From: Methylobacterium sp. E-045
GTDB taxonomy: Bacteria > Pseudomonadota > Alphaproteobacteria > Rhizobiales > Beijerinckiaceae
Length of the DNA stretch: 64,000 nucleotides
NCBI RefSeq assembly: GCF_022829685.1
Contig: NZ_JAKSYE010000085.1
Location: 124,001 to 188,000, forward strand
Direction of reading: 5' to 3'
Every line of letters starts with the position of its first letter. Positions within the stretch are counted from its first letter, which is position 1. Below the pieces are notes generated by a model. The model was not told where the DNA came from and did not search any database. It worked only from the letters and a program-made list of their open reading frames with translations. Of this stretch, positions 14,940 through 47,048 are shown one piece after another. The position numbers and the translations under genes are program-made.

Positions 14940-15947
14940 TCAACCCGGCAGGGTCAGGATGCCGGCCATGCCGCCGGCACAGCCGAAGGCGAGCCGGCCG
15001 CCGCGCCCGTCCCAGGCCAGGGCCGAGATCGCTCCGCTCTTGGTGGCGGGCCGGACCAGCAGTTCCGAGGCATCGGCGAAGCGCACGAGCAGGATGCAGC
15101 CGTCCTCGTAGCCGATGGCGAGGACCAGGGCCTTGGGGTGGAACGCCACCCGCGTGACGCGGGCCGGGCGGATGCCGCATTCGCGCGGCGCCTTGCCGGT
15201 GGGGCCTTCCTTCGAATCGAACGGCCAGATGATGGCGGCTTCCGCGCCGCTGGTGGCGAGCCAGTTGCCGTCCCCCGACCAGCTCACCGAGCGGACCTTG
15301 CCGGGATAGCCCGACATCCGCATGTGGCCGCGGTCGGGCTGCAGGCGCCAGCCGTGGAGGGAATTCTCCTGCATCGTCGTCACGACGAAGCGGCCGTCCG
15401 GCGACCAGGTCACGTCGAGATGCGAGCCCTTCCACTCGACGAAATCGGGGGCGGTCTCGAGATTCGGGTACCAGAGGGTGGCGCCATTGTAATGCGCCAC
15501 GGCGAGGCGGTAGCCCTTGGGCGCGAAGGCAAGCCCCCGCGCCGTGGACGGCGCCGCGAAGATTTTCTCCCGGCCCTTGGCATCGCGGGCGACGACGTTG
15601 CGGCCGGCGGCATAGGCGATGGCACCATCGGAATGGAGGGCCAGGGCATCGATCCAGGCTCCACCCTTGGCGGCGGCCACCTCGGTCATGTCGCCGTCGG
15701 CCGCGACGGCCACGATGCGTCCGTCGTCGCCGCCCGTCACGATCCGCCGCCCGTCGCCCGACGCCACCAGGATGCCGGCATCCGGGTGAGCCTCCACGCG
15801 CCGGGTCGCATGGGGACCGACCAGCATCACGGCACCGTCGCCCAGTGCCAGGGCCAGGACGTCCTTCAGCCAGACGGCCCCGGAGACATGCGCACCGGCC
15901 TCCAGTGGAACGACGTGATCGACGAGTGAGGGAGCGCTGGCGCTCAT
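14940..15947 (-). CDS. WD40 repeat beta-propeller protein
   Basis: A 335-residue protein made of repeated blades, with units such as ILVASGDGRRIVTGGDDG, LDVTWSPDGRFVVTTMQENSLHGW, RSVSWSGDGNWLATSGAEAAIIW and TRVAFHPKALVLAIGYEDGCILL. About seven blades fit the length. There is no signal peptide, so it is a cytosolic interaction scaffold. It is followed at seven bases by the 88-residue CPDPSCPG protein and preceded by the DUF1275 gene 14 bases away. In many alphaproteobacteria a similar WD40 gene sits beside a CobW-type GTPase; none is in this window. Confidence 0.85.
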   Translation of the reverse strand: MSASAPSLVDHVVPLEAGAHVSGAVWLKDVLALALGDGAVMLVGPHATRRVEAHPDAGILVASGDGRRIVTGGDDGRIVAVAADGDMTEVAAAKGGAWIDALALHSDGAIAYAAGRNVVARDAKGREKIFAAPSTARGLAFAPKGYRLAVAHYNGATLWYPNLETAPDFVEWKGSHLDVTWSPDGRFVVTTMQENSLHGWRLQPDRGHMRMSGYPGKVRSVSWSGDGNWLATSGAEAAIIWPFDSKEGPTGKAPRECGIRPARVTRVAFHPKALVLAIGYEDGCILLVRFADASELLVRPATKSGAISALAWDGRGGRLAFGCAGGMAGILTLPG

Positions 15948-17311: not shown

Positions 17312-17695
17312 ATGCGCACCCTGCTCGCCACCGCTCTCGTCCTCTTCGCCACGACGCTCAGCGCCTACACGACAGGAAACGCCAGGGCTGCGTGCGACGT
17401 GAAGGGCGCGAAGCTCGAAGAGGCGATCGCCGGCAAGTCCGAGCTTCGCGAGACCGCCAACAAGCAAGCGGTGCGCGACCTGCGCACCCTGCGCGACGCC
17501 GCGATCATCCTGGAGACGTACAAGTACGAGGGCGAATGCGATCGCCTCGTCGCGATCATCAAAGCACTGGCCACCAATCCCGAGAAGGCGATCGAGCAGA
17601 GCGGCGACACCGACGAGGAGAAGGCGGAGGACCTGATGGAGGCCCGCCAGCCGAAGGCGTCCCCCGGCGACGCCGTTCCCGCCAAGTCGAAGTAA
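17312..17695 (+). CDS. Small secreted protein of unknown function
   Basis: The 127-residue product starts with a signal peptide (MRTLLATALVLFATTLSAYT, probable cleavage after NARA). The mature part is mostly helical and charged, with two cysteines (AACDVKG and GECDRLV) that could form one disulphide, and an acidic, proline-ending tail (TDEEKAEDLMEARQPK). It follows the response regulator by 40 bases on the same strand. No family recognised. Confidence 0.75.
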   Translation: MRTLLATALVLFATTLSAYTTGNARAACDVKGAKLEEAIAGKSELRETANKQAVRDLRTLRDAAIILETYKYEGECDRLVAIIKALATNPEKAIEQSGDTDEEKAEDLMEARQPKASPGDAVPAKSK

Positions 17696-17846: not shown

Positions 17847-18926
17847 ATGGGCACGGATACGGCAACGCGCGGATCGAGCCTCTCCCACGCGCCGAGCGAC
17901 CTGCCCTCGGTCATCCTCGACGATTACAACATCGAACTGAAGAATGGCGAGGGCTTCGTCGGCGACCGCGTATCGAAGAAAGCCTTCCGCGATCTCGTGG
18001 AGGATTGGCGCGAAAAGCTGCGCAAGCTCGGCCCCGATCCCCTGGGCGCGAAGGCGAGCCACGATTTCAGCAAGCGACGCCTCGACGATCTCCTGATCGA
18101 CGGCCCCCCACTCGCCGCCGGCGTGGTCTTCGGCGCGATCGAGGAATTCGCCCAGGAACTCGCGACCGTCGTGCGGCGCTTCCTGCGCCAGAAGGGGTGG
18201 CGTGATACGCAGAGCATCGTCGTCGGCGGCGGTTTCAGCGACAGCCTCGCCGGACGGCTCGCCATCGACCGGGCCAGCGTGATCCTCCGTGCTGGCGGGC
18301 TCGCCCTGAACCTCGAACCCATCCGCCATCATCCGGACGAGGCCGGTTTGATCGGAGCCGTCCACCTCGCACCCTCCTGGATCTTCTCCGGCTACGAAAG
18401 CCTTCTCGCCGTCGATATCGGGGGCAGCAACATCCGGGCGGGGGTCGTCACCACGAACCTGAAGAAGGCCTCTGACCTCTCGCGCGCCGAGATCTGGCGT
18501 TCGGAGCTATGGCGCCACCGCGACGAGGATCCGGCCCCGAGCCGCGACGAGGCGGTCGACCGCCTGATCGCGATGCTGAACGACCTGATCTCGCGAGCGG
18601 AACGCTCGCGCCTGAAACTCGCGCCCTTCATCGGCATCGGCTGCCCCGGCGTCATCGCCGCCGACGGGACCATCGAACGCGGCGGCCAGAACCTGCCCGG
18701 CAATTGGGAGAGCAGCCGCTTCAACCTCGCAGAACGGCTCGTGGAGGCCATACCCACCATTGGGGATCACGACACCGTGGTGCTGATGCACAACGACGCC
18801 GTGGTGCAGGGCCTCTCGGCCATGTCGGACATGAAGGGCGTCGCGCGGTGGGGCGTGCTCACCATCGGCACCGGCCTCGGCAATGCCCGCTTCACCAACC
18901 GCCGGCTCCCCGACAATATGCATTGA
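17847..18926 (+). CDS. ROK-family protein with apparently permuted domain order
   Basis: The second half (residues ~192-359) carries the ROK N-terminal lobe: LAVDIGGSNIRAG phosphate loop, GIGCPG, HNDAVV (the catalytic Asp) and TIGTGLG. It then stops 15 residues later, where normal ROK proteins continue with a zinc motif and a C-terminal helix pair. The missing part seems to be in front: residues ~95-185 contain FAQELATVVRRFL, SIVVGGGFSDSLAG and DEAGLIGAVHLAP. These correspond to the ROK C-terminal lobe (…LDPDVVVLGGG… and …GAA.L). No CxCGxxGCxE zinc motif is seen. It is probably a sugar kinase or a kinase-derived regulator; substrate unknown. Confidence 0.8.
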   Translation: MGTDTATRGSSLSHAPSDLPSVILDDYNIELKNGEGFVGDRVSKKAFRDLVEDWREKLRKLGPDPLGAKASHDFSKRRLDDLLIDGPPLAAGVVFGAIEEFAQELATVVRRFLRQKGWRDTQSIVVGGGFSDSLAGRLAIDRASVILRAGGLALNLEPIRHHPDEAGLIGAVHLAPSWIFSGYESLLAVDIGGSNIRAGVVTTNLKKASDLSRAEIWRSELWRHRDEDPAPSRDEAVDRLIAMLNDLISRAERSRLKLAPFIGIGCPGVIAADGTIERGGQNLPGNWESSRFNLAERLVEAIPTIGDHDTVVLMHNDAVVQGLSAMSDMKGVARWGVLTIGTGLGNARFTNRRLPDNMH

Positions 18927-46127: not shown

Positions 46128-47048
46128 TCAGGCGGGGATGCCCCATAACCAAGCTGCACCCCGCACGCCGGATGCGTCGCCGTGGCGGCTCACCCGGATC
46201 GGTGTCCCGCATTCTCCGGAAAAGACGTGCGGAAGGATCGATCCTGCCAGATCGACCGATAACTCCGGCACCGTCGACAATCCGCCGCCGAGGACCACCA
46301 CGTCGGGGTCGAGGATGTTGATCACGCCCGCCATTGCACGCGCGAGACGCTCCCGATAGCGGCCGATGCTTTCACATGCGGCGGCATCGCCGGTACGCGC
46401 GGCGGCGATGACGGATTCACCGGTCTGAGCGATCGTCCCGGTCCGCCGGGCATGGTCTGCGGCGAGGCCGGGGCCGGAGAGCCAGGTCTCGATACAGCCA
46501 TCCCGGCCGCAATAGCAGGCGGGACCGGGCCGTTCGTCATCGCGAGGTGCGGGAAGCGGGTTGTGTCCCCATTCGCCGGCAATGCGGTTGGCGCCCGACA
46601 GGGCGACCCCGTCGATGGCGATGCCGGAGCCGACGCCGGTCCCGAGGATGATGGCCCAGACGACCCCTGCGCCGGCGCCCGCACCGTCCACCGCCTCTGA
46701 AACAGCGAGGCAATTGGCATCGTTCTCGGCGCGGACCGGGCGGCCGAGCCGTGCCTCGAGATCGATGACGAAGGGCCTGCCGTTCAGCCAGACCGAGTTG
46801 GCGTTTTTCACGAGGCTGGTGCCTGGCGTGATCGCGCCCGGCATGCCGATGCCGACGCTGCCGACGCCGCCGGCATCGCGCTCCAGGCGCAGAACGAGCG
46901 CCGCGATCGCCTCGAGGGTGGCCGCGTAATCGTTCCGCGGGGTCGGGATCCGCCCTTCTGCGCGCACGGCTCCGCCGGCATCGAGGGCGATGCCGGCGAT
47001 CTTGGTGCCGCCGAGGTCGATCCCGATGCGCAGCCGCGCCGGGTCCAC
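46128..47048 (-). CDS. ROK-family sugar kinase (N-acetylglucosamine/fructose kinase-like)
   Basis: Starts with GTG at 47048. The 306-residue protein shows the standard ROK order: phosphate loop RIGIDLGGTKIAGIAL, GIGMPG, catalytic Asp in ENDANCLAVSEA, ILGTGVGSG, EWGH and the zinc site CYCGRDGCIETWLSG. The C-terminal LDPDVVVLGGGLSTVPEL closes it. The GH...C-x-C-G-x-x-G-C-x-E motif marks glucokinase/NagK/fructokinase groups; the sugar cannot be decided. It serves as the reference for the rearranged ROK protein at 17847. Confidence 0.9.
   Translation of the reverse strand: MDPARLRIGIDLGGTKIAGIALDAGGAVRAEGRIPTPRNDYAATLEAIAALVLRLERDAGGVGSVGIGMPGAITPGTSLVKNANSVWLNGRPFVIDLEARLGRPVRAENDANCLAVSEAVDGAGAGAGVVWAIILGTGVGSGIAIDGVALSGANRIAGEWGHNPLPAPRDDERPGPACYCGRDGCIETWLSGPGLAADHARRTGTIAQTGESVIAAARTGDAAACESIGRYRERLARAMAGVINILDPDVVVLGGGLSTVPELSVDLAGSILPHVFSGECGTPIRVSRHGDASGVRGAAWLWGIPA

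Follow-up and report, generated by a model that had tools for sequence, protein, structure and literature searches.

Does a gene of Methylobacterium sp. E-045 encode a ROK-family sugar kinase whose two halves have exchanged places, or do its motifs only appear to be rearranged? The question is raised by an open reading frame within the window (the whole stretch of 64,000 nucleotides that was analysed), in which the sequence-only reading had placed the motifs of a ROK protein's end ahead of those of its beginning. Natural circular permutants of enzymes are uncommon. The evidence points to a sugar kinase of the ROK family (ASKHA fold) that has been circularly permuted in nature, with a probability of about 0.87 in our estimation.

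Open Reading Frame and Motif Layout

The frame starts with ATG and contains no internal stops; a search with its product gives a single match in its own genome (E of 0.001 or better). The features discussed below are as follows.

17847–18926 (+): probable circularly permuted ROK protein; open reading frame and translation, 359 aa
17880–18395 (+): equivalent of the ROK C-terminal part, residues 12–183; profile alignment, best support at residues 66–177
17928–17936 (+): N28-x-E30, possible ExGH counterpart by eye; invariant in 34 aligned sequences
17952–17969 (+): GFVGDR, residues 36–41, no cysteines; about at the zinc-loop place of ordinary ROK (doubled alignment)
18219–18242 (+): VVGGGFSD, adenosine motif; aligned to VVLGGG of ROK
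18345–18359 (+): GLIGA, C-terminal helix of the ROK fold; profile alignment and 34-sequence alignment
18378–18401 (+): linker, residues 178–185; between aligned stretches ending at 177 and beginning at 186
18414–18431 (+): DIGGSN, phosphate-1 loop; invariant in the 34 apart from T/S
18633–18650 (+): GIGCPG loop; 34-sequence alignment
18789–18797 (+): HND with D317; invariant in the 34
18867–18887 (+): GTGLGNA, phosphate-2 hairpin, followed by the new C-terminus; invariant in the 34
46128–47048 (−): ordinary ROK kinase (fructokinase-like), comparison protein; Pfam 2–291 of 294, E = 9.5e-75

The swapped order is confirmed in the translation: VVGGGFSD (residues 125–132) and GLIGA (167–171), with which a ROK protein ends, come first, and DIGGSN (190–195), GIGCPG (263–268), HND (315–317) and GTGLGNA (341–347), with which it begins, come last, the chain ending at residue 359, 12 residues past GTGLGNA. 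What was once the C-terminal part, with the GLIGA helix as its last element, now comes ahead of the former N-terminal part (residues 186–352), whose first element is the DIGGS strand. About 8 residues link the two, and the ancestral chain has been cut open beyond the phosphate-2 hairpin (GTGLGNARFTNR). The linker, residues 178–185, connects the former C-terminus with the former N-terminus. Residues 12–183 correspond to the ROK C-terminal part, i.e., the segment after the phosphate-2 hairpin, the adenosine motif and the C-terminal helix.

The GGG of the adenosine motif is invariant in the 34 aligned sequences and, like HND, is found at all 122 loci of the survey described below. DIGG[TS] is present at 118 of these loci (the remaining four have DVGG), and GTGxGN at 120. 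D317 is presumably the counterpart of the ROK catalytic Asp. In GFVGDR, residues G36, F37, G39 and D40 are invariant in the 34 sequences. E30 is not retained in a distant member (L103).

Profile Evidence for the Proposed Permutation

The Pfam ROK profile (PF00480) matches residues 187–353 of the window protein at profile positions 2–143 of 294 only. The score of 27.5 bits, against a curated cut-off of 22.9, is reached over half of the profile, and in a six-frame search of the genome the protein scores 20.7 bits, under the same cut-off. A match to the whole PF00480 profile in normal order was not found for this protein. The kinase at 46128–47048, named earlier as an example of the standard order, is indeed a real, full-length ROK protein, with the correction that it is encoded on the minus strand; its top NCBIfam model is fructokinase PRK09557 (380.8 bits, under the cut-off of 443).

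Profiles of 43 permuted sequences and 37 ordinary ROKs were compared by hhalign. In native order 130 columns align (ROK 7–140, score 80.5, E = 1.1e-10). When the permuted profile is doubled, 292 columns align (ROK 7–304 of 306, score 112.8, E = 2.9e-14), the path running from DIGG past GTGLG and on into the next copy's first half. The profile rotated at residue 184 gives a nearly end-to-end ROK alignment (E = 2.2e-15), and of 22 cut points tried, those at 180–184 score highest (112.9 and 112.6), with lower values on either side. The proposed circular permutation is thereby supported, since native order aligns one half of ROK and the doubled or rotated profile nearly all of it.

Shuffling of the first-half columns (60 shuffles) yields a maximum of 82.6 for the rotated profile and 22.9 for the first half alone, and the reversed first half scores 18.4 against ROK. 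An ordinary ROK profile rotated likewise falls from 960.9 to 498.9 and loses half of its alignment; the scores of this control are inflated because its two subsets share one sequence.

Taken alone, residues 1–183 align at 66–177 with ROK 199–304 (score 55.3, E = 1.2e-7). Residues 1–65 are unaligned in this comparison and are placed, with gaps, in the doubled alignment only. The displaced part had been assigned to residues ~95–185; its presence stands and its extent does not, as significant alignment covers 66–177 and the start is probably near residue 12.

Curated libraries agree weakly with this assignment, but at the right place of ROK and NanK. The NanK model aligns residues 106–175 of the full window protein to its positions 219–286 of 288 (E = 0.058). 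Among 34 first-half fragments, Pfam ROK matches 9 (best E = 1.7e-4) and NanK NF047821 matches 13 (best E = 0.0014). In ten fragments viewed in detail, all under the curated cut-offs, three ROK matches run from profile position 181 or 190 to 292 or 293 and seven NanK matches from 203–219 to 286 of 288 or 291. A sequence search of the PDB with the first-half profile puts E. coli NanK on top (residues 221–286, E = 0.16). Single weak library matches prove little, because some fragments also match unrelated families: GrdB-like (11 of 34, best E = 0.02), ChrR (2 of 34, 4e-4) and FGGY_C (3 of 34, 0.028). The window protein's own first-half fragment has no match in Pfam or NCBIfam.

Predicted Structure

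The AlphaFold model of the full protein (34 sequences) has a pLDDT of 86.8 and a pTM of 0.85. In Foldseek it aligns with ROK kinases (e.g., 2yhy, 4htl) over 138–171 columns only (TMq 0.30–0.32). The longest reasonable sequential alignment is with MreB (8aam; 309 columns, TMq 0.33, rmsd 6.3), which may be explained by the resemblance of the two domains of the fold to each other; several Hsp70 and exopolyphosphatase chains, also of this fold, likewise align over greater lengths than ROK, with rmsd of 10–17. There is no good full-length Foldseek match to the full model, and the sequential Foldseek comparison fails to set ROK apart.

Residues 12–184 modelled alone (pLDDT 77.7, pTM 0.73; last 23 residues under 50) find ROK proteins as eight of the nine top PDB matches (seven distinct entries), with TMq of 0.37–0.47 and weak E of 0.02–0.12. 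The exception, at rank 7, is UDP-glucose dehydrogenase. 3vov, NanK and Mlc are ROK by title or well-known name; the other entries we take to be ROK. The halves of the permuted protein match ROK structures separately.

These results bear on the notion that a ROK N-lobe is fused to an unrelated N-terminal domain which mimics the motifs by chance. Such a fusion would account for the failure of Pfam to recognise residues 1–186 of the window protein, in the whole chain or as a fragment, and for the weak matches of some fragments to unrelated models. The first half does, however, match the ROK C-terminus by the shuffle-controlled profile, by curated models and by fold. The fusion was rejected on the ROK C-terminal profile matches and the ROK structures found with the 12–184 model, and is regarded as very improbable; an unrelated domain at residues 95–185, the outcome that would have spoken against the permutation, did not appear.

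Conservation and Spread

A scan of species genomes gave at least 561 relatives among the 597 pattern matches listed, of which 80 were kept; a single open frame is present in all 81 loci. The nearest named relatives among the matches listed are in Methylobacterium bullatum (96% identity) and Methylobacterium sp. Leaf91 (95%).

Motif order was followed over 122 loci (121 distinct sequences), which are not independent: many are from Bradyrhizobium, and the window gene is included twice (L001, L094). A weak partial match in B. barranii (L148) was excluded. By a strict first-occurrence test the order is kept at 104 loci; the 18 failures are due to an earlier spurious GLxG-like match (12) or a missing regex (6). 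By a relaxed sequential test it is kept at 119 of the 122, seven of them on plasmid records, so the search for homologues of identical order, suggested as a check, came out positive. Three loci fail the relaxed test. L162, which departs from the pattern in nothing but the loop ahead of CPG, and L161, a fragment short at the N-terminus, keep the order by eye; L157 ends early, before GTGLG. In the draft genomes of L157 and L161 an in-frame TAG is seen, and the gene there may be decaying or misassembled.

A frameshift, an assembly fault or a pseudogene of an ordinary ROK could also produce a rearranged reading, as such faults are common in draft genomes and the present assembly consists of 135 contigs. 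The motif order at 119 of 122 loci speaks against both frameshift and assembly fault. In both halves, substitutions fall on third codon positions 1.4 to 3.4 times as often as on first or second positions, judged from 7 of the 33 possible pairs. The genome-wide Pfam ROK search (E of 0.001 or better) finds two places, the half-match of the window and the ordinary kinase; no ordinary C-lobe is thus detected in another frame after 18926, the outcome that the sequence-only reading had named as speaking against the permutation. The frameshift was rejected on the retained order and the lack of a detected downstream C-lobe, and explanations of this kind are scarcely credible.

In a sample of 398 genomes from the phylum, 41 gave a match at E of 0.001 or better: 22 of the 41 encode permuted proteins of full length, in 5 cases outside the class, and 19 show weak similarity in the N-lobe region, such as an ordinary ROK would also produce. 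Sixteen of 385 genomes sampled from the class matched at E of 1e-10. The gene is on 206 plasmid records (204 cover at least 80%), mainly of Rhizobium (111) and Sinorhizobium (79), with a Roseateles record also in the count; among the records listed, the annotation is 'ROK family protein', 'hypothetical protein' or none. In viral contigs, 22 stretches fit the pattern and none is a relative. Since many related bacteria retain the rearranged protein undamaged, it is a real, and probably a working, natural variant.

Two genomes of the order (G200, G217) carry two full-length permuted copies each. Many Bradyrhizobium loci, e.g., L062 and L053, have a lysine/aspartate-rich tail of ~20–40 residues after GTGLGNARFTNR.

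Genomic Neighbourhood and Promoter

The gene's neighbours in the window, namely a response regulator, a small unknown protein, a protein with DUF2939 and a NUDIX hydrolase, give no functional hint. The small protein directly upstream (17312–17695, +) has a signal-like N-terminus by eye and no Pfam match. A WD40 beta-propeller protein, of a kind not common in bacteria, is encoded at 14940–15947 (−).

Four annotated Rhizobiaceae loci were examined, together with two further loci without annotation. In three of the four (L114, L147 and L150) the gene is divergent from otsB (trehalose-phosphatase), and these lie on p42c of Rhizobium etli, a Shinella plasmid and pRL10 of R. johnstonii; in the fourth, S. 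meliloti Ak57 (L145), it is divergent from the M42 peptidase gene of the osmoprotectant NAGGN system. The Ak57 plasmid is labelled pSymA in its record; in S. meliloti 2011 (L146) the gene is carried by pSymB. On a Bradyrhizobium plasmid a ferritin-like gene adjoins, with PRC-barrel and Hsp20 genes further away.

A sigma-EcfG-like promoter (GGAAC-N16-18-CGTT) was found at 9 of 88 loci, searched from 300 bases before to 30 after the start; random windows of those loci give a mean of 0.5 and a maximum of 3 in 200 sets, a control that ignores relatedness. Seven plasmid loci among the 88 were added by hand. The carriers (L114, L115, L145, L146, L149, L150, L012, L013, L017) are the six Rhizobiaceae loci except that of Shinella (five, including two of S. 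meliloti), the Bradyrhizobium plasmid locus, Stella and two MAGs. The motif sits 60–106 bases before the annotated or matched start, with one extra copy at 259. At two other Bradyrhizobium loci only a looser variant with GTT is present, and the promoter is absent from most of the 88. In the window, both the otsB or osmoprotectant neighbour and the promoter are absent.

The published R. etli sigma-EcfG1 motif is GGAAC-N16-CGTT, according to the available text of PMC3892343; relative to this spacer, the Sinorhizobium copies agree (N16), and those of R. etli and R. johnstonii are one base longer (N17). Control of otsB by sigma-EcfG is reported for B. diazoefficiens in the available text of PMC8092242. 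A word search finds no 'ROK' in the main text of either paper.

The largest non-overlapping neighbour clusters over 80 loci comprise 49, 48 and 43 loci (rplU, GNAT and a DMT transporter by eye). Among 24 loci viewed, they are confined to Bradyrhizobium and close kin. A conserved operon was rejected, since the Methylobacterium, Stella and Roseomonas loci among these 24 do not share the clusters.

Predicted Function and Proposed Mechanism

In many ROK proteins the sugar site is shaped by the zinc motif CxCGxxGCxE, which is typical but not universal in the family, together with the His of ExGH. The zinc motif is found in none of the 122 permuted sequences, and by one regex it is also absent from 14 of 68 ordinary ROK regions. 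The ExGH His is absent in the permuted protein, where N28-x-E30 may stand in for this sugar-binding motif, an equivalence drawn by eye.

An ATP-dependent kinase is the likeliest reading of the sequence, because the phosphate loops, the adenosine GGG and the Asp of HND are kept. The permutant could have been born of one event of duplication and trimming, after which the two lobes would assemble the same ATP and sugar cleft. Phosphates would be held by DIGG and GTGLG and adenosine by GGG, and D317 would serve as the catalytic base in phosphorylating a hexose-like sugar. In rhizobia, the osmolyte genes that adjoin the gene and the sigma-EcfG-type promoter suggest a stress-time kinase, which could, e.g., make glucose-6-phosphate for trehalose synthesis.

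Alternatively, the permuted fold could be real and the kinase activity lost, leaving a sensor or regulator of sugar or nucleotide. Many ROK proteins are regulators, and the missing zinc motif and ExGH His would be in keeping with this, as would the failure to find a conserved operon and a promoter found at only 9 of 88 loci. Against it, all 34 aligned sequences keep the phosphate loops, adenosine motif and catalytic Asp unchanged, nearly all of the 122 have them, and Pfam shows no second domain in the window protein, which consequently has no recognised HTH. The loss of kinase activity is thus considered unlikely, and the ATP-dependent kinase is preferred.

Significance

A description of a ROK permutation was not found in open-access PubMed Central, where the papers that came up deal with other subjects by their titles, and absence there is no proof of novelty. 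In its available text, a classification of kinases admits permutation within fold groups and does not contain the term 'ROK' (PMC1079889); the words 'circular permutation' also occur in PMC2876114, among the papers listed for glucokinase and hexokinase. We tentatively propose, as a possibility with somewhat less than even odds, that no natural circular permutation has been recognised before in a sugar kinase of the ASKHA fold, and that the protein is a working enzyme, widespread in proteobacteria and concealed by the name 'ROK family protein', which the rhizobial general stress response has recruited for the synthesis of compatible solutes such as trehalose.

A permutant of a kinase fold whose two lobes close on each other is informative about the chain connections that the actin-like fold requires, and provides a ready natural experiment on a catalytic hinge with different termini. 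Half of such a protein may be all that a standard profile search recognises, and the label given is then that of an ordinary one; a whole subfamily with a substrate of its own, possibly a stress-related one, may thus have stayed unseparated.

Comparison with Known Systems

With the ROK family PF00480 (glucokinase, NanK, NagK, fructokinase) the permuted protein shares DIGG, the CPG loop, ND, GTGxG, GGG and GLxGA, and both of its halves align to ROK. Unlike in ordinary ROK proteins, the halves are swapped, the new termini lie after the phosphate-2 hairpin, the zinc motif is missing throughout and many Bradyrhizobium permutants have lysine-rich tails.

Ranking of 68 single ROK regions did not identify the ancestor of the permutant; against the rotated profile (hhalign) they align mostly over the N-lobe only, with zinc-type regions ranked first. 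Zinc-less ROKs that resemble polyphosphate glucokinase may be the closest ordinary relatives. Polyphosphate/ATP-glucokinase-like ROKs without the zinc motif (NF045942; relatives L164, L165) are not permuted. NF045942 is the best NCBIfam match of the N-lobe (E = 3.7e-5, 23.6 bits), its equivalog cut-off of 250 not being reached; L164 has NDAxxQGL and GTGxGxAxF stretches in common with the permuted protein. Against a small profile of six such sequences the N-lobe scores 88.7, and the first half scores 17.5, not significant beside a shuffle maximum of 19.8. Such an origin is a lead only, because the N-lobe is suggestive and the other half unsupported.

Human hexokinase I (1dgk), a tandem duplication of the ASKHA fold with two kinase domains per chain, is not close in sequence to the permuted protein. 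The model aligns with it over 357 columns (rmsd 34 Å, TMq 0.27), which could be interpreted as the trace that a permutant would leave along a tandem repeat.
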